Assembly: GCA_963855995.1 (NCBI GenBank)
Contig: OY979728.1
Span: 5,939,330-6,003,329, forward strand
Reading direction: 5' to 3'
DNA: 64,000 nt
Source: Muricea muricata
Taxonomy: Eukaryota; Cnidaria; Anthozoa; Malacalcyonacea; Plexauridae
Shown here: one piece after another, positions 21,993 through 47,551 of the stretch
Layout: every line of letters begins with the position of its first letter
How positions within the stretch are numbered: the stretch's first letter is position 1
Notes under the pieces: model-generated
What the model saw: only the letters and a program-made list of their open reading frames with translations
Database searches by the model: none
Told to the model about the DNA's origin: nothing
Made by a program: the position numbers and the translations under genes

Positions 21993-22170
21993 TGTTTATA
22001 AACATAATATGACGTATATGTCTCAACGTCCAGTAATTTAGTATAGCTCAGTGGTAGAGACACATGTTGTGTTGTGCTCGGTGAGTTTGCCGCCATGTTG
22101 TAAAGAAAAGATGTTCAAATAAAAGGATTTACAAATTACAATCCTTATTAGTTTGTTGTCCATCGTCATG
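21993..22170 (+). repeat. Copia 5' LTR, portion before the outer element
   Basis: TGTTTATAAACATAATATGACG... matches the 3' LTR from 63,419. It ends in GTCATG (22,165-22,170), the target duplicated by the outer element. The last ~15 bp of the LTR lie at 55,480-55,494. Confidence 0.85.
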
Positions 22171-22433
22171 AGTAGTAGGGAAAATGGCCGGATTGGGGGG
22201 AAACAAATCCTGCTGGGTCAGAACCTTTTGGGCGATGGCAACTAGAGAAAATCCCGGCAAAATTTTTCCAATTTGAGTTAAAAATCATCTTTTGGGCGAT
22301 GTTTTTTAAAAAAAATTTCCTTAAAATTTTCCTTAAAATATTTTTAAGGAATTTCTAAGATGGCGGTTTTTCAAAAAAAATCGCGAAAAAGTTTTTGTCA
22401 TTTTAGGGTTAGATAAAAACAATGTCGGTCCAA
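22171..22433 (+). repeat. Left terminal inverted repeat of the outer element
   Basis: It matches 55,212-55,473 inverted, with only scattered differences. It contains AT-rich palindromic runs near 22,300-22,360. The repeat extends past an ATG, so it includes the promoter and the first four codons (ATGTCGGTCCAA) of the first gene. The right repeat starts a different gene with the same codons. Confidence 0.85.
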
Positions 22434-22709
22434 TTTGGAGGTGAAAAACCGCTGGACGCCGCGTTTGTCGACGATGTTTTAGAGGTTTATAACTCCGGAG
22501 GGCTAACGTTAGAAGTACTAAGTGATATATTCTCTGGTTATATGAGTAGGGTCCACTCCGAGCATGACATCGAAGGCTTAAGCCATGCTTACATTAGGCT
22601 TTACGACGAGCTCATAAGTCGACATAAAATAAATTGTCAAAATTGTGGTTTTGGGAATTGCCGTTGTTCTGAACCGTCAAATTTAGGTTCCGGAGGTGAA
22701 GACAATTAG
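22422..22709 (+). CDS. Left terminal gene, 95 residues, unknown
   Basis: It starts at the ATG inside the left TIR. The protein is acidic and helical (DDVLEVYNSGG ... LSDIFSGYMSRV) and ends with a small Cys cluster (CQNCGFGNCRC), possibly a metal-binding knuckle. I do not recognise the family. The position directly behind the TIR promoter suggests early or strong expression. A hairpin lies downstream at 22,789-22,822. Confidence 0.5.
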   Translation: MSVQFGGEKPLDAAFVDDVLEVYNSGGLTLEVLSDIFSGYMSRVHSEHDIEGLSHAYIRLYDELISRHKINCQNCGFGNCRCSEPSNLGSGGEDN

Positions 22710-22788
22710 AAAACGGTTTCATATTGAACATCCTGCAGCCGATAAAAAAACACTACTGAAGAAAAAAATCGTAAACTTAGGGATTATT

Positions 22789-22822
22789 TTTTTTACAAAA
22801 CAAAATGAAGTTTTGTAAAAAA
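22789..22822. terminator. Palindromic hairpin downstream of the left terminal gene
   Basis: TTTTTTACAAAAC and its inverse GTTTTGTAAAAAA enclose an 8-base loop. It is one of nine such hairpins at 3' ends in the outer element. Confidence 0.6.
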
Positions 22823-22845
22823 ATGCCATAAACTGGTACTTACCA

Positions 22846-23082
22846 CTGAGAAGTCTGTAAACCCACTTAATCTTGTTTTGGGAAAAAGTAGGCCCTGCCA
22901 GTGTAACATCCACGTTGTTATGGGTGATAATGGTCCTATGGCCATCGCCACCCCTAAGCGGAAGACGATGGCGAGCCTCCGTAATGTAAGGAAGGTTGTG
23001 GACTCGCTAGGGTAAAAGTGGCCCCCACAATAGTTTGGGACCAACAAAATATTATTATTATTCTTATAAGAATAGTAATAGC
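22846..23082. repeat. GC-richer segment with ATT tail, possible retroelement 3' end
   Basis: This stretch is less AT-rich than its neighbours, has no coding frame, and ends in a short (ATT)n tract (about 23,050-23,062), as some non-LTR 3' ends do. It lies directly in front of the RNA-polymerase-like gene. No target duplication was found, so an insertion is only suspected. Confidence 0.3.
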
Positions 23083-24159
23083 ATGAAAAGGTTTTTAACA
23101 AACAAAGAAATACAAACTATTGTTTCTAACGTCACCGATTCTCCTTTTTTTAGGGAGAATTACATTTCGCAATTAAGAACGATCGTCATGAACCCGTCTT
23201 TAATCCCAAAATTAATTTGTGCATTAAAAGAAAAACATGACGAGAGCCTTATCCAGCCCGGTGAAAGCGTAGGGATTATTGCCGCGCAAAGTATAGGAGA
23301 GAGGTTTACGCAAAGCACGTTGAATACATTTCATCAAGCAGGACTTTTAATACCTGCAGGTGCTACGAAAGGTATACCTCGCGTTGAAGAATTACTCAAT
23401 GTCTCTAAAAATCCTAAACGCATTTTTTACCGTTTAAACCCAGGTATAGACACAAAAGGTTTATAAACTGTTACGTTAAAATGTCTTGCTAAAACAATTA
23501 GGGTCATACCAATGGAAAATTTCGCTTGGCGGGATGTATTCCACACCATGTACGGCATCGGTTTAGACGTAGGCGAAGAAGTTTTACGAATTGAATTGGA
23601 CCGTCAAATGTTACTCGAACACGAGATAACGCATTATGATTTTGTACAAAAAGTATCGTGTTGCGAAATAGATCCCGAAATGAAATTTTTATTCGTACCA
23701 AAACATACGGATATATTGACGTTAATTCAAGGTGTGGCGGGTATTTCTCGCGTCATAGAAGGCACGGTTATAGAAACACACCAAAGCCAATTCCATTATA
23801 TGTTGTCGATGGATCCACAAGCATGTTCTTCTCATGTATGGGACATTTATAACGTGTTAGGTATAGAAGCGGCACGCGAGTATCTTGTTCAAGAATTAGT
23901 AGCCGGAACGCCAGGGGTACACCCAACACATTTAACCGTTTTAGTTGATAAAATGGTATTTACGGGGGATATTTTTTCCGTAAATAGGTACAGTACAAAA
24001 AAAGAGGACATAGGCGTTTTTGCGAAAGCGTCTTTCGAAGAAACGTTCGACCATTTTCTTACGACAGCCGTTAACGAAGAAACTGATAGTACGGATGGGT
24101 TAAGTGCAAGCATCGTATGTGGGAAAAACCATTATGTGGTACGAGGTTTAGGGGGCTAA
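23083..24159 (+). pseudogene. RNA polymerase largest-subunit C-terminal module (Rpo1C/Rpb1-like)
   Basis: About 355 codons matching domain 5 of the largest subunit of multisubunit RNA polymerase. After an ATG at 23,083 comes [15 protein letters not shown] followed by LNTFHQAG, the bridge-helix/trigger-loop region. The conserved Q, L-N and H of the trigger loop are present. The C-terminal half has IYNVLGIEAAREYLVQEL, HLTVLVDKM and KASFEETFDHFL, all family signatures. No upstream two-thirds of Rpb1 exists in the element, so the layout is like the split archaeal subunit A''. One in-frame TAA (23,464-23,466) divides it; both sides share the frame, so this is a single nonsense change. ACG/GTA/TTA-rich codons match neighbouring viral genes. 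Confidence 0.8.
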
Positions 24160-24187
24160 ATTCCTAACGCACATGTGTTAGGAATTT
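24158..24187. terminator. Convergent hairpin between RNAP-like and myristoylated-protein genes
   Basis: AAATTCCTAAC...GTTAGGAATTT spans the whole gap between two convergent stop codons (24,159 and 24,189). Confidence 0.7.
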
Positions 24188-24421: not shown

Positions 24422-26169
24422 ATGTCGTTATTATTCGGTTATTCAAGCGGTTTAAGCACAATACAAGAAGACATCGATATGCAAGGGAATAGGATTATAG
24501 ACCTTCCTGAGCCGGTTACGGGTTCGGAACCTGTTACGAAAAGTTATGCGGACACGCATTATTCTGGTGGTGGTGGTGGACAACGTGGACCAAAGGTGAT
24601 AAGGGAGACACCGGTCCACAAGGACCACAAGGGGCGAAAGGAGGCACGGGACCGCGAGGGTCGAAAGGTGATACAGGTGCACAAGGTCCAAAAGGCGGCA
24701 AAGGAGATGTAGGTCCGCAAGATCCTACAGGGTCAAAAGGCGACAAAGGAGATACAGGTGCACAAGGGCCAAAAGGCGACAAAGGGGATGTAGGTCCACA
24801 AGGTCCTACAGGGTCAAAAGGCGACAAAGGAGATACAGGTGCACAAGGGCCAAAAGGGGACAAAGGCGATAAAGGTAGCGGTGGTTCTTCAAAAGGAGAC
24901 AAAGGGGATACGGGTCCGCAAGGCCCAAAAAGTGATAAAGGAGATACGGGACCGCAAGGTCCAAAAGGGGACCAAGGAGATACGGGCCCACAAGGATCAA
25001 AAGGGGACAAAGGCAATACAGGTGCGCAAGGACCAAAAGGTGACCAAGGAGATACGGGCCCACAAGGGTCAAAAGGTGATAAAGGCAACACAGGCGCGCA
25101 AGGACCAAAAGGTGACAAAGGCGATACGGGGCCACAAGGTATAAAAGGTGACAAAGGATCAAAAGGGGATACAGGTAATCAGGGGCCCCCTGGTTCCGGT
25201 GGTTTATCCGACGCGGGTTTTACAATGCAAGGAGATATTAATATGAACAATAACAAAATTACAAACCTCCCCGACCCAACATTAGCAAACGACCCTATTA
25301 CGAAACAATACGCAACCAGGGTTTACTTAACAGATAGTGGGTTTACGATGCAAGACAACATAGGTATGAACAATCACGAAATACTAGGTTTGAACCCGAC
25401 CCCATCCGACGGTACGTCAGCCGTATCCAAAAGTTATACCGACACGGTGTACATTAAAAAAGGTACCGATATTGATATGAACGGTCACCGTATTACCGGG
25501 TTACCTATTATTCCTTTAACATCGGGCGAACCGATTACGAAAGGTTTTGTAGAAAAGTATTATTCAGATTATACGAATATTTTAACGTTTAAAGGGAAAC
25601 CCAGTAACGTTACAATTCTTCGGCAAGACAATATGGTCGACTCGCCTGAAAACGGACGTGCTACGGAAACGTTAGACTTTTCAAAAGTAGGTAGCAGTTA
25701 CCAAATAAATTTTTCCGTTCAACCCAAACTTCCAAACGGTGTTTACACGTACGAGATGGATGTTGTCTTAACGACTTCTAGGGGGTACGATGTAATGTTG
25801 TGGGGTGATTGTGGCGGTTCTGGGTACAATGCGTCAACGAAATACAAGTATTGGAGTTGGAGTTATGAGAATAAGATAGCTCATAACGATGTACAGGGTG
25901 GACTATTCCACAGGGGTACTGGTAAAAGGGTACGTATCCAAGGATCGTTTTTAAACCAGGGTACGCGTATTTACGGGCAAGAAATTTCACTTTCTTTAGA
26001 TTATGAAAATGGAAAAACGTACGAATTTGTCATGCAAGATTTAGTGTCGAGAAGTACCGACCACGTTCTTGGTAATTCTATCTATTTCGTATTCCAACCT
26101 GACAATAACCATACGATGGACTTTACGGACGAAACGTTTTTCAGTTTTAAACGGTTATCGAAGTTATAG
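24422..26169 (+). pseudogene. Collagen-containing viral fiber
   Basis: A ~580-codon fiber-type protein. The N-terminus (DIDMQGNRIIDLPEP...VTKSYADTHYSGG) is a repeat that recurs three times after the collagen part (MQGDINMNNNKITNLPDP; IGMNNHEILGLN; DIDMNGHRITGLP). Such 'DMNGxxIxxLP' repeats form trimeric beta-helix shafts in phage and viral fibers. About 200 residues of Gly-X-Y follow from ~24,594 to 25,198, rich in KGDKGDTG. The last ~200 residues are a beta-rich globular head, probably for receptor binding. A one-base frame change near 24,565-24,595, next to the (ggt)n tract, separates the N-terminus from the rest. It could be a lesion, an assembly error or frameshifting. Confidence 0.75.
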
Positions 26170-26560: not shown

Positions 26561-26563
26561 GAA

Positions 26564-26591
26564 AATTCATAACGTCATAACGTTATGAATT
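26564..26591. terminator. Convergent hairpin
   Basis: AATTCATAACG and CGTTATGAATT fill the gap between the stops of the 33-residue gene (26,560) and the leftward gene ending at 26,591. Confidence 0.7.
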
Positions 26592-26836
26592 TACTCTAAA
26601 TTTTTTTTATAATTATCGATAGATGTGGATAGGTTTTTTACAAATATATCGAGTTTGTTTAAACTATTTGTGTGGAGTTTTTTACAAAAGTTTAAACCGT
26701 TTAAGTAAAGATCTTTTAAAAAGTTATTAAAGTCATGGTAGAATGTAAGCATATGTTCATATTGTTGTTGGTTGTAATTTTCACCATATACCTTTTTAGT
26801 TAAATCCCGCACTAATTCTAATTTTAATTCATCCAT
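26591..26836 (-). CDS. 81-residue helical protein, unknown
   Basis: Starts MDELKLELVRDLTKKVYGENY and is predicted almost wholly helical, with heptad-like spacing. The start is preceded by TTATAATAAA, the common AT-rich start-proximal element of this provirus. No family is recognised. It could be a small structural or regulatory protein. Confidence 0.45.
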   Translation of the reverse strand: MDELKLELVRDLTKKVYGENYNQQQYEHMLTFYHDFNNFLKDLYLNGLNFCKKLHTNSLNKLDIFVKNLSTSIDNYKKNLE

Positions 26837-26969: not shown

Positions 26970-26975
26970 TTTTTA

Positions 26976-27002
26976 TTTCAAAACCTTTTAAAGGTTTTGA
27001 AA
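26976..27002. terminator. Hairpin after the ATPase gene
   Basis: A perfect palindrome, TTTCAAAACCTTTTAAAGGTTTTGAAA, directly abuts the ATPase stop codon (27,003-27,005). Confidence 0.7.
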
Positions 27003-27584
27003 TTATGGAATGATAACTTGATGTGTGTATGGTCTTGTCGTTAAAATTTCTAATCGTGCATAGTCGTTATTTTTTAACGTGTCTATAATTCCTTTTTCTT
27101 CGTCTTTTTCAATATTAAGATAATTGTTGAAAATATATTTTATATCGTCTTTGCACGCGTTGTAAAACGTGACGAGTTTTGAAATATTCATTCTGTACGG
27201 TTTTGCAATAGACGTGAGTTGGTGCGTGACGACGATCGTACTTAATCCGATATGTCGACCGGAGAACCTTAATTTTACGAGTTCGCTCGTTCTGTTTTTA
27301 ACGTCTTTGCTCGATGCGCAATCGTCGAGGATAACGAGACTGTTGGTATTTTTTGCAAAATATGTAATTTCACGAAGGGTAGTTTCTACGTTATCATGTG
27401 GGACGGGCAATGCGTAGACGTCTGGATCAGCTAAATATTTCCATTGTTGGTACGTTTTGTTATCTTCTAAAGTTGGACATACGATGAAAATATGGTCGAA
27501 ATGGTTCTTGTATTCTTTTTCAAGCATTTCCAAAAGGTAATGTGTTTTTCCACACGCGGTCATGCCGACAATAATCATATGCAT
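27003..27584 (-). CDS. DNA-packaging ATPase (A32/FtsK-like) of the outer element
   Basis: The 193-residue NTPase starts with IIVGMTACGKTHYLLEML (Walker A GMTACGKT at residues ~7-14). Walker B is SLVILDDC at about 83-90, and a sensor-like VTHQ (VVTHQLTS) follows at about 118. Size and motifs fit the genome-packaging ATPases of Polintons, virophages and large DNA viruses, which pump DNA into capsids. It is intact, lies directly upstream of the capsid gene in the same direction, and ends in a palindromic hairpin. An uncharacterised P-loop function is the only alternative. Confidence 0.8.
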   Translation of the reverse strand: MHMIIVGMTACGKTHYLLEMLEKEYKNHFDHIFIVCPTLEDNKTYQQWKYLADPDVYALPVPHDNVETTLREITYFAKNTNSLVILDDCASSKDVKNRTSELVKLRFSGRHIGLSTIVVTHQLTSIAKPYRMNISKLVTFYNACKDDIKYIFNNYLNIEKDEEKGIIDTLKNNDYARLEILTTRPYTHQVIIP

Positions 27585-27586
27585 AC

Positions 27587-28309
27587 TTAGTAATTAGCGG
27601 TCCCGTTAAGTTGTGTTCCGCTAATATCAATTGTACCATCGGCAATAACGAAAACGTGGCAGGATAAGTCGGATGTTGTGGCTTCTTTTTCTATTTCCAA
27701 AAGTATTCCTGCTTGCGTTCCAATAAGTTTTCGGCCGCTATCGCTGACGGTGTCATCGTCCACGGTCCTGAAATCTATAACGCACGCAAACTTGTCGGTG
27801 TAATATTTTCGTCGGGATATACATTCTATTCCGATAAATTTTTCGCAGTCGTCATTCCCGAAGAACCGGACGGCTTCCTTGTGCATATTTCGTTTTGCAA
27901 GACCACGACTGTAGATATCGTTTGGGTTTCCTTCGACGGTGACGTCGACTTGTGTTAAATTTGGGAAGGGGAAATGTTCGCTATCGCCTGCACCTTTTTC
28001 CGTGAATAACAATACGACAGCTTTCATGCTTTTTCTCGGGATATTGATATCGATAACTTCGCGCGTACTTCCTTTAGCCCACGGTAACGTTTTCAAAAGC
28101 GTTGAATAATTATACGGGAACGAACGGCCGGCATTGTACGTCCCTCGGACACTGTTTGCAAGACCTTCACGTCACTATGCAAGACGTCGTATTCTAATTG
28201 CAAATCTGTAAGTCTATACGTTCCGGTTTCTTCATTCGCTTGTGCTTTCATAATTTTTTCCGACCTTGGTAACGTGATGTCGTAGACAAAATCGCACATG
28301 CCGTACGGG
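27587..28309 (-). pseudogene. Major capsid protein, C-terminal part
   Basis: This is the distal part of the capsid gene whose beginning is at 42,590-43,128. The inner Polinton (28,310-42,589) sits between. The reading frame enters from the target duplication, then shows a one-base shift near 28,095 in a T-run before continuing to 27,587. The content is beta-rich, as expected for the second jelly-roll of a double-jelly-roll capsid, with FVYDITLPRS and MKAVVLLF strands. It is identified by context: between ATPase and penton-like genes, with suitable size. Sequence signatures of such capsids are weak. Confidence 0.65.
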
Positions 28310-28961
28310 AGTAGTAATATAGGTACCGATCGACCCCCTTTTTTAGGGGTGTGCAGGGATGTGCGGAGGGGTGTGCACAAAGGGGTGTGCAGGGATGTGC
28401 AGAGGGATGTGCAGAGGGGTGTGCACAAAGGGATGTGCAGAGGGGTGTGCAGAGGGGTGTGCACAAAGGGATGTGCAGAGGGGTGTGCAGGGATGTGCAG
28501 AGGGGTGTGCAGGGATGTGCAGAGGGGTGTGCACAATGCGTTACGTACACAAGCCGTTACGTGCACCCCGTGACGTACGCTATAGTCGCGCTCTGATTGG
28601 TTAATGGTTGGCGTACGTATGCCCCGTGACGTACACCCCGTGACGTACGCCATAGCTATGCTCTGATTGGTTAAAACAGCGTACGTATGCCCCGTGACGT
28701 ACACCCAGTGACGTACGCCATAGCTATGCTCTGATTGGTTAAAACAGCGTACGTACACACCGTGACGTACACACCGTGACGTACGCCATAAACGCGCGCT
28801 GATTGGTTAAAACAGCGTACGTATGCCCCGTGACGTACGCTATAGTTGCGCTCTGATTGGCTAAAAGAGCGTACGTATGCCCCATGACGTACGCTATGGC
28901 CGCACTCTGATTGGTTAATGGTTGGTGGCATAAACTATATAAATTCGCCGTCGAGTCGAGC
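28310..28961 (+). repeat. Left TIR of the inner Polinton
   Basis: It pairs with 42,071-42,589 inverted. The outer 230 bp hold a G-rich array of 'ggtgtgcagagg' type units (28,345-28,535). The inner part holds six ~65-bp units, each with TGACGTAC and a CTGATTGGTT block. The right TIR has four units, so copy number varies between ends. Confidence 0.9.
28560..28961 (+). promoter_or_regulatory. TIR enhancer-like array and TATA box, left
   Basis: Six repeats combine a CRE-like TGACGTA with an inverted CCAAT (ATTGG). They are followed by a TATA box (actatataaat, 28,934-28,944) about 26 bp before the end of the TIR and ~36 bp before the first ATG. The arrangement is that of a Pol II promoter with NF-Y/CREB-type sites. 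Factor binding is inferred from motif identity only. Confidence 0.6.
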
Positions 28962-28969
28962 ATTCATCA

Positions 28970-29710
28970 ATGTTAGGATTACACTTGGTTTGGTGTCTTT
29001 GGTTCAGTCAAAAACCGATTATTATTCAAGACGCTAGAGAAGGAGTGGAACGCCTGATAAAAGCATTGGAAAATCGTCAGAATACAATGGAGTGTTTACA
29101 TGGTTTACCAGCATCTTCAACAGTGACGCAAAAGGGCACGTTTTGGTTCTGTGGTGAAAATCCGAGCTGTGAGTTCTTTTGCCCCGATCAAGATTGCTAC
29201 ATGTTTGGAAAAGCTGTGACGGCCTATCGTGAAAGTGGTTGTGTACATCCAAGGTGTTATGGACATGGGCGCCTGGCAAAGCTGCGAATGGTTAAAGATA
29301 AGAATAACCAGAACTATGGTAGACCGTTCTTTGTGTGTTCCGAAAGAGATAATCCCTGTTCCTTTTGGCAATGGGGTGATGTGTTCGAAGGTATCAAGCC
29401 CATTTGCCGACATGCTCTGATATGTCGCACTAAGAAAGTGAAGAAAGAGGGTCCTAATCAGGATCGTTTATTCTATTGTTGTCCTCATCCAAGAGAAAGT
29501 GCTTGTGACTTCTTTGAGTGGAAACCTGACGAAGACCCCCTTGAGCCAGGTTGTGTTTGTCTGTTTAGTATGCCACCATCTTACCGATATGCAGTGAGAA
29601 AGACCGGGGAGATATTTACTAGCAAGGAAACGGATCGTAAGAAAGCGTATGACGAGTTCCTTCGCCAAAAGGAAGTCGATGAACTGATTCAGGACTTACA
29701 GATCTGCTAA
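28970..29710 (+). CDS. Triple GRF zinc-finger protein
   Basis: The 246-residue protein carries three GRF-type zinc-finger modules. Module 1 is CLHGLPASS...FWFCGENPSCEFFC, module 2 is CYGHGRLAKLR...NYGRPFFVCSERDNPCSFWQWG, and module 3 is CRHALICRTKK...RLFYCCPHPRESACDFFEW. GRF fingers bind single-stranded nucleic acid in topoisomerase III-alpha and APE2-type proteins. It is the first gene behind the left TIR promoter. ATG 28,970 is used here; a second in-frame ATG near 29,087 directly precedes module 1 and could be the true start. A role in element DNA replication or repair is inferred. Confidence 0.65.
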   Translation: MLGLHLVWCLWFSQKPIIIQDAREGVERLIKALENRQNTMECLHGLPASSTVTQKGTFWFCGENPSCEFFCPDQDCYMFGKAVTAYRESGCVHPRCYGHGRLAKLRMVKDKNNQNYGRPFFVCSERDNPCSFWQWGDVFEGIKPICRHALICRTKKVKKEGPNQDRLFYCCPHPRESACDFFEWKPDEDPLEPGCVCLFSMPPSYRYAVRKTGEIFTSKETDRKKAYDEFLRQKEVDELIQDLQIC

Positions 29711-29924
29711 TGACTATAACAAAAGTGTAACTGTATATATAATTAAATAAACATTATCTACATTTATATCGTGTTATTATGTTGTTGTTGTTCATTCGTG
29801 TCGACTTTTCTTTGAGTAAGCATGTCATGTTTAAAGGGTGGGTTGCCCTCTATAAAATTTAGAAGAATACGTTTCATGTTTGCCTGTTGCTCAGGAAAGA
29901 TTGTGATTCAACAGTCGGAAATTG

Positions 29925-31007
29925 ATGGCGGAGAAGTACCTCCACGACCTGTATTACAACCCCGAAAGTCCGGCGAGTTTTGGCGGGGTGGAGGCTGTTT
30001 ACCGTGCCGCAAAAGAAGACGGCAAGTTCCAACTATCTCGTAATAAGATAAGGACATGGTTGAGACAACAAGACACATATACTTTACATAGACCGGTCCG
30101 TTACAGATTTAAGAGAAATAGAGTCATTGTCGGGGGTATAGATAAAGAATGGGAAGCCGATTTAGTTATTATGGATTCACTAAGCAAAGAAAATAATGGT
30201 TTCAAGTATATTTTAACTGTTATTGATGTATTGTCTAAGTATGCATGGGTAGAACCCTTGAAGACAAAGTCCGGGGAAAATTTGGTTAAGACGTTTGAAA
30301 AAATCCTGAAAAAAGGACGGAAACCTGAAAAGTTACATTCCGACAAGGGAACAGAGTTTACAAATAGACTGTTTCAAACATTTCTAAAGAAAAAGAAGAT
30401 TTTTTTCTTCACCACATGTAATGAGACCAAAGCGTCAGTGGTTGAACGGTTTAATCGAACGTTGAAGGGAAAAATGTGGAAATATTTCACGGCGAATCAT
30501 ACGCTCAAGTATATTGATGTCTTACAGAAATTAGTACGTTCCTATAATCACTCGAGGCATCGTAGCATTGCAATGCGACCAAGCGATGTCAATCTTCAAA
30601 ACGAAAGTGTTGTGTGGGAAAGACTGTATGGTGATGAAGCAAATAAGCTTTTTAAGTACAAATTTAGCATTGGAGACCAAGTTCGAATAAGTAAAGCAAG
30701 ACGAACGTTTAAAAAGGGTTACCTACCCAGTTGGACCGAAGAGGTATTCAGGATCACAAAGCGGATACGAAGAAAACCCCCTGTGTATAAAATTGCGGAT
30801 TATCACGGAGACGAATTAGAAGGGACATTTTATGAACCTGAATTACAGAAAGTTATTAAGACAGATAGTGACTATTATAGAGTCGAGAGAGTAATTAAAT
30901 CACGTATGCGTAATAAACAAAAGGAGCATTTTGTCAAGTGGTTAGGTTATCCAGATAGTTTTAATTCCTGGGTACCTGCGAGTAATGTAAAAAGTATTTC
31001 AAAATAA
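29925..31007 (+). CDS. Retroviral-type integrase with chromodomain, inner Polinton
   Basis: This ~360-residue DDE integrase pastes the element into host DNA. The start is ATG 29,925, giving MAEKYLHDLYYNPESP. An N-terminal HTH-like region is followed by catalytic D (WEADLVIMD), D (HSDKGTEF) and E (ASVVERFNRTLKGKM). The C-terminus is a chromodomain (YYRVERVIKS...HFVKWLGYPDSFNSWVPASN) that probably reads histone methylation for target choice. The frame is intact. The protein has the same architecture as the outer integrase at 45,007-46,074 but is clearly divergent. Confidence 0.9.
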   Translation: MAEKYLHDLYYNPESPASFGGVEAVYRAAKEDGKFQLSRNKIRTWLRQQDTYTLHRPVRYRFKRNRVIVGGIDKEWEADLVIMDSLSKENNGFKYILTVIDVLSKYAWVEPLKTKSGENLVKTFEKILKKGRKPEKLHSDKGTEFTNRLFQTFLKKKKIFFFTTCNETKASVVERFNRTLKGKMWKYFTANHTLKYIDVLQKLVRSYNHSRHRSIAMRPSDVNLQNESVVWERLYGDEANKLFKYKFSIGDQVRISKARRTFKKGYLPSWTEEVFRITKRIRRKPPVYKIADYHGDELEGTFYEPELQKVIKTDSDYYRVERVIKSRMRNKQKEHFVKWLGYPDSFNSWVPASNVKSISK

Positions 31008-31064
31008 ACGTATATAACCAATGACACTACGGGTGTTGTGTTCATTTGTCGCTCACTTATAGCC

Positions 31065-31823
31065 ATGGCCAGTCAGTTTTACCTTACTCTTCCATCGAAC
31101 AGTTCTATGGAATATTTTCCAGCCAATACGCTGACAAATTTTAAAACAAAACTAGCTCAACCTTTAGAACTGACAGGAGAATGGGAAGTGGCACTCTCCG
31201 AGTTCCAGTACCCTCGTAGCTGGTACAATTTACGTAAAGGTTTCGACAGTCATATTTACGTCGCTAGTGGCGGTCAGGGTTATTTCTTGACAAGTACTGT
31301 CCCGCATGGGTACTACCCAACCGTTAAGGAGTTTGTTTCCGCTGTGAATAAAACGTTAAAGACTGACGCAAATGGGGATATCTGGCTGACATACAATCAA
31401 TTAACTCGAAAAATGACTGTACATGTGAGAAACAAGGCGAGGTTGGTTTTGACTGGTCGGTTTGCAAGTATGGTTGGATTTGATAAAAAAGAATTGGAGA
31501 TAGCAAAGAATACGGAAGCCCCTTTACCTGTAGATTTAGAGGCTGGATTTCATGCCATGTATTTGTACACGGATATTGTTGAGCCACAGTTAGTAGGTGA
31601 TAGTAAAGTTTCCTTGCTCAAAGTTGTCAAGTGCAGTGGCGAGTTTGGGGATAATGTAAGCGTAAATTTTCCGAATCTTCAATACGTCCCAGTGAATGTA
31701 AAGTCGTTTGAGACGGTGGAGATAGATATAAAGGATGATACACAGGAAAAAGTACCATTTGAGTTTGGGAAGGTGATCGTAACACTTCACTTCAGACAGA
31801 GGAGATCTCCTTTATTCATATAA
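31065..31823 (+). CDS. Penton-like minor capsid protein, inner Polinton
   Basis: The 252-residue beta-rich protein begins MASQFYLTLPSNSSMEYFP, typical of the Polinton minor capsid (single jelly-roll penton) family. It forms the five-fold vertices of the predicted virion. It lies between integrase and pX-like genes, the standard Polinton order. ATG 31,065 (agccATGG, good Kozak context) is preferred over the upstream ATG at 31,038, which is not preceded by a plausible leader. The frame is intact. Confidence 0.7.
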   Translation: MASQFYLTLPSNSSMEYFPANTLTNFKTKLAQPLELTGEWEVALSEFQYPRSWYNLRKGFDSHIYVASGGQGYFLTSTVPHGYYPTVKEFVSAVNKTLKTDANGDIWLTYNQLTRKMTVHVRNKARLVLTGRFASMVGFDKKELEIAKNTEAPLPVDLEAGFHAMYLYTDIVEPQLVGDSKVSLLKVVKCSGEFGDNVSVNFPNLQYVPVNVKSFETVEIDIKDDTQEKVPFEFGKVIVTLHFRQRRSPLFI

Positions 31824-31825
31824 CT

Positions 31826-32323
31826 ATGAGGCATACGTATATACCCGACGCAAACGAATGTAAAGTGTATTACTTGAGAAGTCAAAATGGTGGGGGCCTA
31901 CGTGGTTTCCATGGAGCTAGGATACAGCGGGGGTATGGGCTTGGTAGTTTTTTCAAGAGTATTGCTCGTGTTGCCATACCTTTGGTCAAGAAAGGTGTAA
32001 ACGCGCTCGGTAAAAAAGCAATAAAAACAGCCGTGAATGTTGGTCAAGACGTACTAGAAGGAAAAAGCGTAAAACAAGCAGTCGCAAGCAGAGGACGGCA
32101 AGCTGTGAATGATCTAGCAAAACAGGGTGTGGATAATATCAAACGTCAAATTGGGGGAGGTTCTAAGATCACAAATCAGTCCGGGCCCTCAAAACGTTTA
32201 AATACTAATTCTCGAAAGAAAGTCGTCACTTCCACTCGAGCAAGTAAACGGAGAACATCACCACTCGATACACAAGAAAATATTTTTGATAGTCCACCTA
32301 CTAAAAAATGGCGCAAGCAGTAA
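31826..32323 (+). CDS. pX/pVI-like basic virion protein, inner Polinton
   Basis: The 165-residue basic protein has a Gly-rich N-terminal stretch (SQNGGGLRGFHGARIQRGYG) followed by an amphipathic helix (LGSFFKSIARVAIPLVKKGV). The C-terminus is rich in Arg/Lys/Ser (SKRRTSPLDTQEN). In adenoviruses and Polintons such proteins are cleaved by the viral protease and disrupt membranes or bind DNA inside the capsid. Starts 2 bp after the previous stop and overlaps the capsid gene by 16 bp. The function is inferred from position and composition. Confidence 0.6.
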   Translation: MRHTYIPDANECKVYYLRSQNGGGLRGFHGARIQRGYGLGSFFKSIARVAIPLVKKGVNALGKKAIKTAVNVGQDVLEGKSVKQAVASRGRQAVNDLAKQGVDNIKRQIGGGSKITNQSGPSKRLNTNSRKKVVTSTRASKRRTSPLDTQENIFDSPPTKKWRKQ

Positions 32324-33654
32324 ATGTCCTTCATAAAGATTCATGTGGATGTGGAAAATCAGAACTCGAATTATTTACAGTACCACCTACACAAATTGAA
32401 ATGAACAAGGGATTTTGGGAAAGTGTTGATCCTGTTGCAAGCGTTCAAACTTCTGACACTATTGAATTCCTTTGTGCCGCTAATCCCGACGTCTACACAG
32501 ACCTGGCAAACAGCTACCTTCACGTGAAAGCAAAAATAACAAAGGCAAATGGTGCCGATCTGGATGCCGACGAGCAAGTAGGCCCTGTGAACCTGTGGAT
32601 GCACGCATTATTTTCTCAAGTTGACGTTTTCTTAAACAATAAACTTGTTACACCTTCAAGCACAGCATATCCGTGCAGAGCGTACATAGAAACCATATTA
32701 AATTTTAGTAAAGATACCAAATCGTCGCAGCTTACATCCGCGTTGTTTTACAAAGACAAAGCCGGGAAAATGGACTCTGTAAATCCTGTGGCAAATGCCG
32801 ATGCTTTGAATACCGGACTAAAGGAGCGCTATAATCTTTCTAAGGAAAGCAAAATGGTTTCCATGGAGGGAAAAATTCATTCTGATCTTTTTGCCCAAGA
32901 ACGTTACATCCTGGGTGGGGTTCCTATTAAGCTCAAGCTTGTGCGAACAAGTCCTGCCTTTTCTTTGGTATCTTCAGCCGACCCAGCCGCCTACAAAGTT
33001 GTGATAGAAGATTGTGTCTTCCGTGTACGCAGGGTCAATGTTTCTTCTACCGTCATGATCGGTCATACAGAAGCCCTCAATCATACCACGGCCAAGTACC
33101 CCATCAACAGAGTTGAATGCAAAGTGTTTTCCGCCCCAAGAGGGAACTACTCTGGAAACCAACCCAATATCTTTCAGGGACAATTACCTGATAGAATTGT
33201 CATTGGTATGGTTGATTCCACGGCCTTCAACGGATCTTTTAAGAAGAATCCATTCAATTTTAAAAACTACGATATGACCTATCTTGAATTAACTGTAAAT
33301 GGGGAACATTTACCTAGCAAACCACTACAGATGAAATTTGGTGATGCAGGAGGTGCCAACTATGTGTCGGCATTTCAGACATTGTTTGCTGGTTCAAACA
33401 AGTTGTTTCAGAACGAAGGGAATGGCATCACGCGTGACGAGTACGCTAACGGCTACACATTGTTCGTGTTTGATCTGACAGCTGATCTTTGCGCCAGAGA
33501 TCATCTGCAACCTATTAAAAATGGTAATGTCTCACTGGAAGTTCAGTTTGGTACAGCTCTTAACCTGGTTATAAATATCATGGTGCTCGGAGAGTTTCAA
33601 AACCTTATTGAGATCGACGCTAACCGCAACGTGCTCTGTGATTTTAACAGTTAG
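32308..33654 (+). CDS. Major capsid protein (double jelly-roll), inner Polinton
   Basis: The intact 448-residue protein starts MAQAVNVLHKDSCGCGKSE. Internal landmarks are SVDPVASVQTSDTIEF, LWMHALFSQVDVFLN and FFVFDLTAD-like strands near the end. Its length and position between pX-like and protease genes match the hexon-type Polinton capsid protein, often annotated as F54H12.2-like in invertebrates. It would form trimeric capsomers. An uninterrupted frame suggests the element retained virion capacity until recently. Confidence 0.8.
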   Translation: MAQAVNVLHKDSCGCGKSELELFTVPPTQIEMNKGFWESVDPVASVQTSDTIEFLCAANPDVYTDLANSYLHVKAKITKANGADLDADEQVGPVNLWMHALFSQVDVFLNNKLVTPSSTAYPCRAYIETILNFSKDTKSSQLTSALFYKDKAGKMDSVNPVANADALNTGLKERYNLSKESKMVSMEGKIHSDLFAQERYILGGVPIKLKLVRTSPAFSLVSSADPAAYKVVIEDCVFRVRRVNVSSTVMIGHTEALNHTTAKYPINRVECKVFSAPRGNYSGNQPNIFQGQLPDRIVIGMVDSTAFNGSFKKNPFNFKNYDMTYLELTVNGEHLPSKPLQMKFGDAGGANYVSAFQTLFAGSNKLFQNEGNGITRDEYANGYTLFVFDLTADLCARDHLQPIKNGNVSLEVQFGTALNLVINIMVLGEFQNLIEIDANRNVLCDFNS

Positions 33655-33655
33655 A

Positions 33656-34120
33656 ATGAACACCCTTCAAATTTTAAACGTGCTTCAAAGTGATCCATTC
33701 ACCAAATCGGTTTTTACGAGTGTACTACCTTCAGATCGACTACCTGACACTATATCAGAAAAGCCCAAGGGATTTGTTGTAAATGTCGATGGTAGTGATG
33801 GCCCCGGCACGCACTGGGTAGCTATTTACCTGGCAGCTGATGGATTTGGAGAGTTTATGGATTCTTACGGACAAAGACCTACCTACTACAGCGAACACTT
33901 TAAAACGTTTTTAGAAAACAATAGCAGTACTTATATTTATAATAAACATGTCTTACAGTCGCCATGGTCTAATGTGTGCGGCCAGTACTGCTTGTTTTAT
34001 GCATTACATAGGTGTAGAAATATACCCATGTCAACTATTACTAATATGTTTACGAACGATAAGGAATGGAACGATATGCTTGTAAGGGATTTTATATGTA
34101 AATGGTTTTTTGTGCAATAA
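33656..34120 (+). CDS. Adenovirus-type cysteine protease, inner Polinton
   Basis: The 154-residue protein has the Ulp1/adenain order of catalytic residues: His in GTHWVAIY (~residue 45), Asp in GEFMDSYGQ (~60) and Cys in WSNVCGQYCLFYAL (~108). Proteases of this type mature Polinton and adenovirus capsids. ATG 33,656 starts 1 bp after the capsid stop. The frame is intact. AATAAA lies right at its end (34,117), a probable polyadenylation signal for the rightward gene cluster. Confidence 0.85.
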   Translation: MNTLQILNVLQSDPFTKSVFTSVLPSDRLPDTISEKPKGFVVNVDGSDGPGTHWVAIYLAADGFGEFMDSYGQRPTYYSEHFKTFLENNSSTYIYNKHVLQSPWSNVCGQYCLFYALHRCRNIPMSTITNMFTNDKEWNDMLVRDFICKWFFVQ

Positions 34121-34183
34121 ATGTATTAAAAGACAAACAAGTTATTTCAGTTTCATAAATTTATTTATTTCATACGTTATACA

Positions 34184-34921
34184 CTATTTAAACCATTTGT
34201 ATGGTCGTCCAGCTTGTTGAGCCCGCCGTTTTCTAGCTTTAGGCTTAATCCCCAGCAAAGGTGCTGTAGCAACGCTACTAGCTTCTTCTAGTTCGGGTTG
34301 GTGTAGTGCCCCGATTTTATAATCTCGTATTGTTTTTAAGCGATTCTCATTCCTAACAATTCCTTCTGGGATATTAACATCACTCAAGGCTTTTGCGAAA
34401 AGTCTCCATCCTTGAGGATTAAAATTCTTCCGGTGACGTAGCGCATCGTTAACAAGATCTATCACATTACTCCCCGGTACAGGTTTGCCCTCGTATACCA
34501 GCTGGGCTTTGTCATCCCATGTAATCAAATCTTTATTTTCCTTTAATTTCTTAACAAGTTGTCGGGCTCTAGTTTTCATCGTAGGAGGGACACTTTCCAG
34601 AATATCAGTTTCGATATTGTCGGGTAGATGAACAGGTTCTGGTTGTGTTTCCGGCTTCTCTGTAGTCGGTTTAGAGGGTACTACACTTACTCGAACCGGC
34701 TGACTCATTCTCTTATCATAATAATTCAAGTAGCGTTGAAGAATTTGACTATATAGTCTAGCTTTTTCATCTTGAGTGATGTCTTGTCTCTTAAGTAAAC
34801 TATCCATTTCCGAATCTAAATGATTCACTTGAGAGGTCAAAGGTGGAACCAATGGCTTACTTTGTGTTGTATTCTCTACCATATGCTCTGGCATGAGGAC
34901 TAACCGCTTCACGTGTTCCAT
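34184..34921 (-). CDS. Leftward protein of 245 residues, unknown structural gene
   Basis: MEHVKRLVLMPEHMVEN leads into SQVNHLDSEMDSLLKR, a central Pro/Glu/Thr-rich linker and a basic C-terminus (KPKARKRRAQQAGRPYKWFK). I recall related proteins in invertebrate Polintons next to the ATPase, with unknown role. It overlaps the next gene upstream by a stop/start junction at 34,921. A charged DNA-binding tail suggests a core or packaging role, but this is only inference. Confidence 0.6.
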   Translation of the reverse strand: MEHVKRLVLMPEHMVENTTQSKPLVPPLTSQVNHLDSEMDSLLKRQDITQDEKARLYSQILQRYLNYYDKRMSQPVRVSVVPSKPTTEKPETQPEPVHLPDNIETDILESVPPTMKTRARQLVKKLKENKDLITWDDKAQLVYEGKPVPGSNVIDLVNDALRHRKNFNPQGWRLFAKALSDVNIPEGIVRNENRLKTIRDYKIGALHQPELEEASSVATAPLLGIKPKARKRRAQQAGRPYKWFK

Positions 34922-35250
34922 TATTGAGTCAAAAGACTAGCCAATTGTTCAACTATCGGTGTAAGGATTAATGACAAAAAACCTTCGCCCTTTTGTAAAA
35001 GCACTTCTCTTCGCTGGTTCAAAGGGTTCCGATTGTCAGCGACAAAACGTAAATCTTCTTTGAGCGGTGTTAATCGTTTCAACACACTGGGATTAACTTT
35101 AATCGTTTTTAAATAAACGTTCATGCAGCACTCTGTCAACGCCTCTAGCAGATCGTCGTGTGCGACTTCAAGTATCGCCTTTCGTTGAGCCGGAGTACAC
35201 TTTCGTAACACTTTTAAAAAGTCAGAGTTCCTTCTAAGACGAGCTGACAT
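34921..35250 (-). CDS. Small helical protein, 109 residues, unknown
   Basis: ATG 35,250 gives MSARLRRNSDFLKVLRKCTPAQRKAILEVA, predicted all-helical. The C-terminus is hydrophobic (GFLSLILTPIVEQLASLL). It is a conserved Polinton-neighbourhood gene as far as I recall. Its stop overlaps the start of the 245-residue gene, implying coupled expression. Function is unknown. Confidence 0.6.
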   Translation of the reverse strand: MSARLRRNSDFLKVLRKCTPAQRKAILEVAHDDLLEALTECCMNVYLKTIKVNPSVLKRLTPLKEDLRFVADNRNPLNQRREVLLQKGEGFLSLILTPIVEQLASLLTQ

Positions 35251-35286
35251 GACTAAATGAAACTTGTTGCGATGAAACAAATTGTT

Positions 35287-35925
35287 TTATGTTCGCGGTA
35301 CATAGACGTAGTGTTTGTCGTTCGGAAATATGCCAGACCTTAAGCGCGTTTCATCCGGACATGTGGGTGTTAGGTCGATAAATAAATATGAAAATGGTTC
35401 AGCTGTCGCCATTTGATATGCTTGTTGAAAATATTTGACGTTGTTGGGGTAAATTTGCTTAGCTAAATGAATAACCTGACTTGCATCTCTGACGTTCTTT
35501 GTTAACACAATATAACTGGCGTTTAATGAAATGGTGCGGTGATCTTTACTCTGATGAAATAGGTTTTGAACTATGTAAATCACGCTGAGATTCCCGTGAT
35601 GAGACTTTTTTGTAAATAATTTCGCAATCACCGAGTCTCGCTCCCCCATCATATCATCAAATATATAAAGATTTCGCGTCTTGGGGTTGATACTGTCGAA
35701 TATTACATCTGGTACACCTTCAATAAACTCAATGTTCGGAACTAATGATTTTATCTCAGCAAATGTATCCTGATACTCGGAATAAAAATATTTAATGTTC
35801 TCAGGTGGTGGGTCAATCATCACTTGAACGTTGCCTAACAATTTCTTGACAAACGTTGTTTTGCCAGTTTTTGTACCGCCTGAGACAAGGAGGCCAAAGG
35901 GATGTGTTAGTTGTAACGAATACAT
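35287..35925 (-). CDS. DNA-packaging ATPase, inner Polinton
   Basis: The 212-residue FtsK/HerA-A32-type NTPase has Walker A GGTKTGKT within PFGLLVSGGTKTGKTTFVKK (residues ~8-27), Walker B LYIFDDMMGE (~85-94), and a VQNLFHQSKDHRT segment near the sensor. It pumps DNA into Polinton capsids. ATG 35,925 is preferred because upstream in-frame codons lack an ATG. It is only distantly similar to the outer ATPase (27,003-27,584), so the two elements are different lineages. Confidence 0.85.
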   Translation of the reverse strand: MYSLQLTHPFGLLVSGGTKTGKTTFVKKLLGNVQVMIDPPPENIKYFYSEYQDTFAEIKSLVPNIEFIEGVPDVIFDSINPKTRNLYIFDDMMGERDSVIAKLFTKKSHHGNLSVIYIVQNLFHQSKDHRTISLNASYIVLTKNVRDASQVIHLAKQIYPNNVKYFQQAYQMATAEPFSYLFIDLTPTCPDETRLRSGIFPNDKHYVYVPRT

Positions 35926-36046
35926 GACTAAACTGACCAACGTAAGTTTGCAAAAACGTTATATATACCATTTCATATTCTACCGCTTTGATGTATTTTC
36001 ATAAGTTCGTTTAAAATGCGATCCAACGGAAGAATTTTCGCTTGCC

Positions 36047-36160
36047 TTAATAATATTGTCTGTCTTTTGCCGGCAAGTGATGATAATCGGCCAAATGATT
36101 AGAAAGTTTTAACAAGCCTTGCTTCCCACACAGGGGACAGTCTTTACGTAGACGCGGCAT
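36047..36160 (-). pseudogene. Small C2H2 zinc-finger gene with a frameshift
   Basis: ATG 36,160 opens MPRLRKDCPLCGKQGLLKLSNHLADYHH, a single C2H2 finger, and stops after 37 codons. Past a one-base shift near 36,050 the other frame stays open for ~30 codons (LRQAKILPLDRILNELMKIH), suggesting the gene was once longer. It may be the only broken gene in the inner element. Confidence 0.5.
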
Positions 36161-36235
36161 GATACAAACTAAAAGTATTGAACTTAAACATATAACTAAA
36201 TATTGTTAAACATAAAACTAAATACTGTTTTGTAA

Positions 36236-36360
36236 AAGTCCCGTGGAGGGACAAATTGTGTCCCGCAAGTCCCGCAAAGTGATATCAGGTTTTGCAAAAG
36301 TCCCGTGGAGGGACACAAAGCCCCGTGGAGGGACAAATTAAGTCCCGCGAGTCCCGTTTC
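36236..36360. repeat. Short palindromic repeats, GTCCCGTGGAGGGAC
   Basis: The 15-base palindrome-like unit GTCCCGTGGAGGGAC, or a variant, recurs about three times in 100 bp with GTCCCGCAAGTCCCG spacers. It lies between the zinc-finger fragment and the PolB 3' end. No coding role is seen. It could be a replication or transcription element. Confidence 0.5.
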
Positions 36361-36545
36361 AGCAAAACTAACCGATGCCCGCTCACGAACTCGATTCTAT
36401 TATTGTCCAAAACCACATATATCGTGTTATATGATCCCCCGTGTGGTCAACAGTATTAATAAGTTTAATCGCCGAGGGGTAAAGGAAATAAGACACAGAT
36501 GGTAATAACACGCACACATGTATTCACAAAATAGCTATTTACAGA

Positions 36546-41995: not shown

Positions 41996-42070
41996 ATTAT
42001 CCAAGTAAAAGATTCCGTACAAAAGACTCTTGTGTTTCTTGCCAAGTTAAGACGCGCGATAATAATGTAA

Positions 42071-42360
42071 GCTCGATTCGACGGTGGATTTATATAGTTT
42101 TATACCACCACCCATTAACCAATCAGAGCGCGACTATAGCGTACGTCACGGGGCATACGTACGCTGTTTTAACCAATCAGAGCATAGCTATGGCGTACGT
42201 CACTGGGTGTAGGTCACGGGGCATACGTACGCTGTTTTAACCAATCAGAGCATAGCTATGGCGTACGTCACGGGGTGTACGTCACGGGGCATACGTACGC
42301 CAACCATTAACCAATCAGAGCGCGACTATAGCGTACGTCACGGGGTGCACGTAACGGCTT
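42071..42360 (-). promoter_or_regulatory. TIR enhancer-like array and TATA box, right
   Basis: Same CCAAT/CRE-like units as at the left TIR, oriented leftward. The TATA box lies about 95 bp before the PolB ATG at 41,995. Sharing one regulatory block between the first and last transcription units would coordinate replication and structural genes. Confidence 0.55.
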
Positions 42361-42589
42361 GTGTACGTAACGCATTGTGCACACCCCTCTGCACATCCCT
42401 GCACACCCCTCTGCACATCCCTGCACACCCCTCTGCACATTCCTTTGTGCACACCCCTCTGCACACCCCTCTGCACATCCCTTTGTGCACACCCCTCCGC
42501 ACATCCCTGCACACCCCTTTGTGCACACCCCTCCGCACATCCCTGCACACCCCTAAAAAAGGGGGTCGATCGGTACCTATATTACTACT
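42071..42589 (-). repeat. Right TIR of the inner Polinton
   Basis: Inverse of the left TIR, with four CCAAT/CRE units instead of six, a TATA box (reverse of atttatatagt, 42,088-42,098) and the G-rich outer array (42,375-42,550). It drives the PolB gene leftward. Confidence 0.9.
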
Positions 42590-43128
42590 TACGGGGCGAA
42601 CGGACCGTTATCGCATAAAATTTTACCAAGCGGGATTTTCATATGATCGCACATACCTGCAATCGCTGTGTCTAGTGCACCGTCTGATTTCACTGATTTG
42701 TCAGCGCTATCATCTTTAGAAATAAGTTTTCGGACATTTTCAGAGGCAATTCCAAAATCTTGCCGGTTTGTACGATCGACGATGGACCGCCATAAGTCTT
42801 TGTAAACTTCAAATAGGCTTTCGCCCGTATTCTGGTAAACTTCCACTCCTTGTACTTTAATACTAAGTCGGTCGACAAGCAACCGGCCTAAATTGTTTAA
42901 AAACCAACTTTTCGTGTTGCTGTTGTTAAATTTAAACGATAATGCTAACGTACCCGGAACGATACATTCGTTTGCATTCAAGGCAGGAATACTTACCGCG
43001 TAAACATCTTCTGGGACGGCTTCTGTTTTCAATAACGACGCTTCAATGAAGCATCTTTTTCCACGCTCATCTTTATCGAGCACCGATACTTTCTTATAAC
43101 CTGCAGTTAATTGTTCACCTCTATTCAT
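42590..43128 (-). pseudogene. Major capsid protein, N-terminal part
   Basis: ATG 43,128 opens an ~180-codon frame up to the inner Polinton. It includes SLLKTEAVPEDVYAVSIPALN and a SFKFNNSNTKSWFLNNLGRLLVDRLSIKVQG strand-rich segment, consistent with the first jelly-roll of a double-jelly-roll capsid protein. The frame agrees across the insertion with the C-terminal part (27,587-28,309), so the gene was still coding when the Polinton inserted. The start codon follows the preceding gene's stop without spacing. Confidence 0.65.
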
Positions 43129-44315: not shown

Positions 44316-44331
44316 TTTATTTAAATAAAAG
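44316..44331. promoter_or_regulatory. Divergent 16-bp promoter (TTTATTTAAATAAAAG)
   Basis: Only 16 bp separate two divergent start codons, and TTTATTTAAATAAA is nearly palindromic. The same AAATAAA next to ATG is seen at 48,203, 48,527 and 43,128, suggesting a common start-proximal promoter motif in the provirus. Confidence 0.55.
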
Positions 44332-47525: not shown

Positions 47526-47551
47526 TTTCATAACCTACATAGGTTATGAAA
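47526..47551. terminator. Convergent hairpin
   Basis: TTTCATAACCT and AGGTTATGAAA with a 4-base loop lie between convergent stops at 47,525 and 47,557. Confidence 0.7.

Follow-up and report, generated by a model that had tools for sequence, protein, structure and literature searches.

The window analyzed here is a 64,000-nucleotide stretch of the genome of the cnidarian Muricea muricata (GenBank assembly GCA_963855995.1, contig OY979728.1; C13:5939330-6003329 in our numbering), and the genome searches reported below cover 453 Mb in 74 contigs. It contains a Polinton of 33.3 kb (22171-55473) that encloses a second, ordinary Polinton, and the outer element carries a gene for the C-terminal piece (A'') of the largest subunit of a multisubunit RNA polymerase (RNAP) (Table 1). 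A preliminary description, made from the letters alone, had proposed this combination, and it is borne out by the results given below. With moderate assurance, we assign the outer element to a Polinton lineage with a multisubunit, giant-virus-like RNAP of its own, of which it is a dead copy. The copy present here is most likely a partial relic.

Family PF04998 (RNA_pol_Rpb1_5) matches the two halves of the A'' frame with E values of 7.6e-19 and 4.1e-8, both above the curated cut-off, and the Rpb1 motifs named in the preliminary description are present. The gene spans Rpb1 domain 5 from just ahead of the trigger-loop motifs to its end. It lies, as described, between terminal inverted repeats (TIRs), but a single in-frame TAA codon (23464-23466) interrupts it, so that this copy can give no full-length product. 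Because A'' contains this stop, the DNA polymerase gene is interrupted, and the capsid gene is split, the window copy is dead. The A'' protein is 72-84% identical to the other A'' copies compared in this genome. One of these, from the element c1_40 described below, matches an archaeal A'' (4qiw, E 1.7e-33) and RPB1 of Pol II (E 3.4e-33) nearly equally among solved structures (phmmer). PHROGs yielded a single match for A'', to a family without a named function, as well as a weak endonuclease match, and no relative on the viral contigs of IMG/VR was confirmed with the window A'', the A'' family alignment, or the outgroup A'' alignment.

The ACG- and TTA-rich codon style that had been noted for A'' and its neighbors in the outer element is also confirmed. 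ACG makes up 0.50 of the threonine codons of A'' and TTA 0.66 of its leucine codons, and the ranges for five other outer-element genes are 0.42-0.57 and 0.39-0.66. The corresponding values are 0.25-0.50 and 0.10-0.33 for three open reading frames (ORFs) of the inner Polinton, 0.19 and 0.15 for a copia gag gene, and 0.06 and 0.24 for a DDE transposase. These values bear on the possibility that a fragment of a host Pol II gene was inserted into a Polinton, an explanation that has homology in its favor and nothing else. We judge it highly improbable, given that the codon style equals that of the element, that a homologous gene is present in elements elsewhere in the genome, and that a tree of the A' piece (Rpb1 domains 1-4 and the start of domain 5) parts the elements from host Pol II exons, host Pol I and Pol III not being in that tree. 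Copies of the provirus lacking the gene, which the preliminary description had linked to a recent host insertion, are not what was found; the closest copy read, at C2:66.64 Mb (hereafter C2:66), has A'' in interrupted form.

Relatives of the window gene are spread through the genome. When all six frames were searched with PF04998, 28 rows resulted, some of them host genes or unassigned pieces; a tblastn comparison of the fetched loci places window-like A'' at eight loci, the window included. The genome search for A' gave 31 rows, which we grouped into 10 element-like loci and two host loci. The element-like loci match the A' query at 51-100% identity, one being a 54-residue fragment, and at three of them (C1:40.83, C1:20.61, and C1:100.77 Mb) a stop-free frame covers at least 770 of the 795 residues. 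A' bears the NADFDGD active site. Among the 17 rows of a genome search with PF00562, element Rpb2 was found at two places, C2:52.416 and C1:100.782 Mb, with domains 1, 3, 4, and 6. Both sequences contain GYNQEDS and one contains GDKF..R.AQKG, which we take to be Rpb2 motifs.

A' and A'' occur within one locus in five cases (c1_40, c1_20, c1_4, c1_100, and c2_52). The two genes of c1_40 jointly supply Rpb1 domains 1-5, with the NADFDGD and QSIGE / LNTFH.AG motifs; the window alone has only the C-terminal part of domain 5. Three of the loci share AGTAGT...ACTACT termini and 6-bp duplications. Of these, c1_40 (C1:40825536-40841632; 16.1 kb, 747-bp TIRs, duplication ATCTTA) carries A', A'', a packaging ATPase (PF04665), a capsid gene, and a DNA polymerase; c1_20 (23.4 kb, duplication GATACT) has the same gene set; and c1_4 (21.4 kb with a long interspersed nuclear element (LINE) inside, duplication GATATC) has A', A'', and DNA polymerase. 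The remaining two, c2_52 (16.0 kb, 1.74-kb TIRs, no duplication seen) and c1_100, each carry A', A'', DNA polymerase, and Rpb2. TIRs were sought in c1_100 and C2:66, and none was found.

Two loci tie these elements to the window type, in which neither the window nor C2:66 yielded A' or Rpb2. C2:66 is closely related to the window element (integrase 96%, capsid 91-93%), and its DNA polymerase (L029:3876-7019, C2:66.65 Mb) resembles that of c1_100 (L019, C1:100.77 Mb), unlike that of the window; a PDB sequence search with this polymerase gave no useful match. Because C2:66 joins window-like structural genes to a c1_100-like polymerase, the elements are mosaics whose modules have been exchanged. 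The second locus, a window-type element at C3:30.709 Mb, carries A' followed by a collagen-like gene, an ATPase fragment, and a window-type capsid gene. There, A' adjoins the collagen-like gene in the place held by A'' in the window, and the PF04998 genome search found no A'' part at this locus. Because this element has A', window-type elements once carried A' too. Three window-type A'' copies were read, and each of them is either interrupted or truncated. A further A' gene, in pieces, lies at C13:6082917-6085002, ~80 kb beyond the window.

The preliminary description had considered either that the module was captured alone to modify another polymerase, or that the lineage descends from a larger virus with a full RNAP. 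In the first case, A'' would be an accessory that replaces or competes with the C-terminal part of Rpb1 of the host or of a helper virus and thereby reprograms that polymerase, and the element would never have needed its own A' or Rpb2. Such a role would suit the window and C2:66, with A'' and no A' or Rpb2 match, the absence of Rpb2 from c1_40 and c1_20, and the constraint on A'' between elements. However, sister elements encode A' with A'' at the five loci named above, two of these also have Rpb2, one window-type element carries A', and the window A'' groups with A'' of A'-bearing elements (see below). The claim of a lone capture is thus weakened, and we consider it quite improbable. Descent from an ancestor with a full RNAP fits better, but that ancestor need not have been large, since the complete-ended elements with A' and A'' measure only 16.1, 23.4, and 21.4 kb (the last with its LINE).

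The A' tree comprises 46 rows, among them 16 of 114 listed outgroup rows, 14 of 80 archaeal loci, 10 of 80 IMG/VR loci, and one partial host Pol II; archaeal and IMG/VR rows were cut to 1000 residues, and the tree is without host Pol I and Pol III and without named nucleocytoplasmic large DNA viruses. The IMG/VR rows were drawn from the best 80 of 400 confirmed matches, which are 21-35% identical to the first sequence of the alignment. All A' sequences of the elements fall into one long-stemmed clade (100/100). Its sister group (100/99) consists of 16 metagenomic proteins of 914-1,360 residues, and the two together stand apart from archaea and from host Pol II. The long-branched, unsplit IMG/VR sequence L037 joins outside this pair (100/98). 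Two of the metagenomic proteins (P0140 and P0185) carry intein-like domains, and one of the 16 is source-labeled Promethearchaeota, yet falls outside the archaea.

The A'' tree has 38 rows, with 12 of 104 listed outgroup rows and 11 archaeal rows (three fused archaeal proteins were dropped); some of its branches are weak, and the tool issued a long-branch warning. Both halves of the window gene group with the A'' of A'-bearing elements (98/97), and C2:66 and C1:11 branch at an unresolved base. Because C2:66 branches away from the window A'', this gene has not simply tracked the integrase-bearing backbone. Two candidate sources were rejected with these trees. An archaeal origin, hinted at by the point at which A' and A'' are split, is ruled out by the position of the elements outside the archaeal clade in both trees, and a host Pol II origin of A', which bears on the host paralogues raised in the preliminary description, is ruled out by the separation of element A' from the single host Pol II in the A' tree.

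Pairwise ratios of nonsynonymous to synonymous substitution rates (dN/dS; Nei-Gojobori method, own script) are 0.11-0.13 for A' and 0.10-0.23 for A'', with a single outlier of 0.36 over 94 codons (window versus C2:66). Judging from these ratios, A' and A'' are under purifying selection. Between the window and C2:66, A'' is 72-81% identical in protein sequence and thus more divergent than the integrase and capsid (91-96%). Relatives at 60-64% identity are present in other assemblies, in which contigs sized 77,578, 199,441, and 492,189 recur among the A'/A'' and capsid matches. This recurrence suggests that the RNAP and capsid matches of equal contig size share contigs. On the contig of 492,189, a single 672-residue frame (P0126) holds the C-terminal part of A' together with A''; the two may be either joined or eroded there.

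Another possibility is that the RNAP genes were recently picked up by recombination from a co-infecting giant virus and have been decaying as passengers since their capture. The nearest relatives outside the family, among the matches listed, are Rpb1 N-terminal proteins on metagenomic contigs of up to ~300 kb, and the damage to all three window-type A'' copies is likewise in keeping with decay. However, the single, long-stemmed clade of element A', the low dN/dS between elements with 14-28% protein divergence, and the relatives in other assemblies, some on contigs whose sizes recur among capsid matches, all speak against it. We give such a recent acquisition little credence.

The RNAP-bearing elements also carry hairpins at gene boundaries. 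The scan accepted only perfect stems, 10 bp or longer, that enclose loops of 3-9; we compared the counts with those of shuffled sequences and took the gene coordinates for the boundary test from our own list. The two parts of the outer element (5,867 and 12,613 bp) contain four hairpins each, with shuffle means of 0.04 and 0.10, and none of the eight lies inside a gene even though genes occupy 75-85% of the sequence. The inner Polinton has no hairpin with a stem of at least 10 bp in 13,091 bp, the left flank two in 21,990 bp (shuffle mean 0.30), and the right flank none in 8,521 bp. In c1_40, 5 + 3 hairpins were found in 14,605 bp, one of them inside a gene, and one 10-kb piece of c1_20 has five. 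In counts made without shuffles, 18 hairpins lie in 45.3 kb of further RNAP-bearing loci (none in one 4-kb piece of c1_4), and six lie in a total of 62.0 kb from seven host stretches.

The hairpins beside the gene at 49002-49484 stay paired where the sequence differs between elements, although the count of conserved pairing, taken from the loop outward, is inflated where loops have shifted. Clear compensated pairs number two in the 3' hairpin (window versus c1_4) and one in the 5' hairpin (c1_4 versus c1_20). By inspection, AT-rich palindromes lie just 5' of many copies of A', A'', the family-B DNA polymerase (PolB), the GIY-YIG nuclease, and the gene at 49 kb, and an AATAAA-like stretch precedes the ATG of several capsid, ATPase, and integrase genes. 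This two-class pattern of gene starts, observed by eye rather than statistically, has exceptions.

We infer that A', A'', and Rpb2 assemble into an element-specific polymerase that would recognize element promoters and transcribe element genes, by a route that is probably not the normal one of Pol II, in the cytoplasm or in a virus factory. By analogy with Mimiviridae, the hairpins may act as 3'-end and possibly 5' signals, and transcripts would end there. The window copy would then either have kept only A'' (with its stop) and lost A' and Rpb2, or derive from a lineage that received both in trans from sister elements. Because c1_40 and c1_20 are without Rpb2, subunits may come in trans from other elements, the host, or a helper.

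Several observations weigh against an RNAP of the lineage's own. No element read unites A', A'', and Rpb2 with the capsid set: Rpb2 was not found in c1_40 or c1_20, which have A', A'', ATPase, and capsid, and c1_4, c1_100, and c2_52 gave no match for capsid, ATPase, or integrase save a 69-residue capsid remnant in c2_52. No homologue of the window integrase was found in the four TIR-bearing elements with A' and A'' (c1_40, c1_20, c1_4, and c2_52). Both element Rpb2 genes contain stops or breaks, and their dN/dS of 0.08 rests on a near-saturated dS of 1.97. Even in c1_40, the DNA polymerase lies in two overlapping frames and a homologue of ORF333 of type 2 elements is in two pieces. The subset of ORFs that was scanned yielded neither a capping enzyme nor a small RNAP subunit nor a transcription factor. 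The protein searches admitted sequences of 0.55-1.75 times the query length, which barred most unsplit Rpb1 from the lists of nearest relatives. Finally, the hairpin control is one ordinary Polinton, and the palindromes could equally be protein-binding DNA sites.

The uneven distribution of genes could also mean that the elements are partitioned or satellite-like, with RNAP subunits spread over co-resident kinds (A', A'', and capsid in one, Rpb2 in another, integrase in a third) or with Rpb2 provided by the host or a helper virus. The products would act in trans, and the capsid-less kinds would resemble linear plasmids. This arrangement would account for c1_40 and c1_20, which have A', A'', and capsid with no Rpb2 or rve (retroviral-type) integrase match; for c2_52 and c1_100, which have Rpb2, A', and A'' without the capsid set; for c1_4, which has A' and A'' with neither; and for the window type, with rve integrase, capsid, and A'' only. 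It is also consistent with the AGTAGT termini and 6-bp duplications of elements that have no integrase match, and with the mosaic C2:66. However, deletion in dead copies yields the same pattern, and the division is drawn from a handful of elements. We regard partitioning as unlikely and retain, as the better account, a lineage with its own RNAP.

Like Polintons/Mavericks, these elements have TIRs starting with AG, a 6-bp duplication, an rve integrase, a family-B polymerase (PF03175), an A32 ATPase, and a double-jelly-roll capsid; they differ in adding RNAP largest-subunit genes and gene-boundary hairpins. According to a 2018 account, transcription genes were unreported in characterized polintoviruses (PMC6211774). 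In agreement with the preliminary description, which knew of no such Polinton, none of the titles and abstract openings that we searched mentions an RNAP gene in a Polinton; the search did not extend to most subscription papers or, in general, to bioRxiv.

Yeast cytoplasmic virus-like elements (linear plasmids) are likewise small and linear, with a family-B polymerase and an RNAP of their own, and they lack a capsid set, as do three of the five loci with A' and A'' here. They encode a two-subunit RNAP, a capping enzyme, and a helicase, and no capsid (PMC6211774, PMC10328495). In the elements described here, by contrast, Rpb1 is split into A' and A'', c1_40, c1_20, and the window type have capsid and ATPase genes, and the scanned ORFs revealed neither a capping enzyme nor a helicase. 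Mimiviridae also combine their own RNAP with sequence-variable palindromic hairpins at gene ends, and transcripts are described as terminating at these hairpins, whose sequences are not conserved (PMC4402537). The present elements differ from them in size (~16-23 kb), chromosomal integration, and the split of Rpb1, and poly(A) polymerase and RNase III were not recognized among the ORFs scanned. Of the Nucleocytoviricota core genes, only those for capsid, ATPase, PolB, and RNAP were seen among those ORFs. Mriyaviruses are small giant-virus relatives that share the double-jelly-roll capsid; unlike these elements, they are without DNA and RNA polymerase (PMC11253617). The archaeal RNAP has a nearly identical split point (residues 40-348 of c1_40 A'' align to residues 40-369 of archaeal A''), in contrast to the placement of the elements outside archaea in both trees.

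Whether a Polinton-like ancestor exited the nucleus is the point on which two models for the origin of giant viruses, "nuclear escape" and "virophage first," disagree, and the former expects transcription genes to be gained along that path (PMC10328495). The elements look like a long-predicted, so far unreported step of this kind, by which a small DNA virus of the nucleus acquires transcription machinery of its own. We tentatively raise the further possibility, somewhat less likely than not, that a eukaryotic (perhaps animal) Polinton lineage with its own giant-virus-like RNAP of split A'/A'' and Rpb2 and with hairpin-delimited genes is replicating now or did so recently, partly as capsid-less, plasmid-like forms. 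Such a lineage would be the link that nuclear escape calls for, standing between Polintons of the nucleus and the DNA viruses or linear plasmids of the cytoplasm. The occurrence of Polinton ends, capsid, and RNAP genes in many copies in one genome makes this step testable by phylogeny and biochemistry, and hairpins that are present in RNAP-bearing elements but not in the nested ordinary Polinton provide a second, independent test.

The outer Polinton measures 19.0 kb once the inner element and its extra duplication are subtracted. Its TIRs of ~265 bp (repeat detected at 22165-22436 versus 55209-55481, 97%) have AGTAGT...ACTACT termini and are flanked on both sides by GTCATG, which upholds the TIRs and 6-bp duplication of the preliminary description. 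The insertion target was a copia-type retrotransposon, entered between one long terminal repeat (LTR) and the gag region. Other features are as listed (Table 1).

Table 1. Features of the outer Polinton and its surroundings (window coordinates)
Feature	Position	Strand	Remarks
Copia LTR	21997..22171	+	Partner 63426-63592, 93% repeat; gag and RVT_2 matches downstream
Left target-site duplication GTCATG, outer Polinton	22165..22170		Exact 6 bp
Left TIR, outer Polinton	22171..22436	+	Starts AGTAGTAGGG
Hairpin, gene boundary	22788..22823		Stem 14
Hairpin directly 5' of A'' ATG	23053..23080	+	Stem 12, one mismatch allowed
RNAP largest-subunit C-terminal piece A'' (Rpb1 domain 5)	23083..24159	+	PF04998, both halves
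Hairpin, A'' 3' end	24158..24187		Stem 11
Collagen-like repeat protein	24422..26169	+	Repeat family D1; C2:66 homologue
Hairpin, gene boundary	26563..26592		Stem 13
Hairpin, ATPase gene 3' end	26975..27003		Stem 13
A32-type packaging ATPase	27003..27584	-	PF04665, E 7e-15
Major capsid gene, C-terminal part	27587..28303	-	C2:66 capsid 93%, c1_40 capsid 30%
Nested ordinary Polinton	28310..42589		TIRs ~460 bp, rve, PolB
Major capsid gene, N-terminal part, outer element	42592..43128	-	Homology to C2:66 and c1_40 capsids
ORF, outer element	43302..44516	-	~81% homologue in C2:66
ORF, outer element	44332..45003	+	93% homologue in C2:66; dN/dS 0.085
rve (retroviral-type) integrase	45007..46074	+	PF00665, E 2.8e-7; 96% copy in C2:66
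Candidate minor capsid protein	46078..47208	+	20-25% identity to ORF333/ORF230 of type 2 elements
Hairpin between convergent genes	47526..47551		Stem 11
Hairpin, 3' end of gene 49002-49484	48981..49009		Stem 12
Small gene common to A'/A''-bearing elements	49002..49484	-	Homology
Hairpin, 5' end of gene 49002-49484	49483..49513		Stem 14
GIY-YIG nuclease and C2H2 finger	49529..50005	-	PF01541, PF00096
Small gene common to A'/A''-bearing elements	50056..50460	-	75% to c1_40
Family-B DNA polymerase and endonuclease VII domain, three open stretches	50532..54607	-	PF03175, PF02945; homologues
Hairpin upstream of DNA polymerase gene	54637..54662		Stem 11
Right TIR, outer Polinton	55209..55473	-	Terminates CCCTACTACT
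Right target-site duplication GTCATG, outer Polinton	55474..55479

The collagen-like gene is open over 24511-26166, its frame being broken relative to the ATG at 24422. The integrase score of 31.1 bits for PF00665 is just below the curated cut-off of 32.6. The candidate minor capsid protein is proposed as such from weak homology to these type 2 ORFs, and a PDB sequence search with it gave no match; no maturation protease was recognized among the scanned ORFs of the element. The two ORFs at 43302-44516 and 44332-45003 overlap in antiparallel orientation, and both have C2:66 homologues.

The two capsid pieces match the C- and N-terminal parts of the uninterrupted C2:66 homologue, and the inner Polinton thus splits the gene. 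The predicted fold of the c1_40 capsid homologue (P0241; mean predicted local distance difference test score, pLDDT, 68.8 from a 29-row alignment) matches the double-jelly-roll capsids of PBCV-1 and SGIV with an E value of 5e-13, and also those of Megaviridae. Through the sequence homology of the window pieces to the c1_40 capsid, the major capsid protein of the outer element is predicted to be of this double-jelly-roll type.

The nested Polinton, flanked by the duplication TACGGG (28304-28309 and 42590-42595), has tandem-repeat-rich TIRs, a GRF zinc finger, a chromodomain integrase, and PolB. The interval between the outer TIRs therefore holds more than the preliminary description had stated: A'' does belong to the outer element, and a second Polinton lies inside it. 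No RNAP gene was found within 28310-42589, and the nested element as carrier of A'' is ruled out by the coordinates.

Among other observations, LINEs with an ORF resembling GDSL lipases lie in two RNAP-bearing loci (L015:1429-5960 and L020:2458-6078), the host Pol II gene was recovered exon by exon, and a BEL/Pao element was also seen. In the host flank of the window, a perfect 723-bp inverted repeat with a 30-bp center occupies positions 6691-8166.

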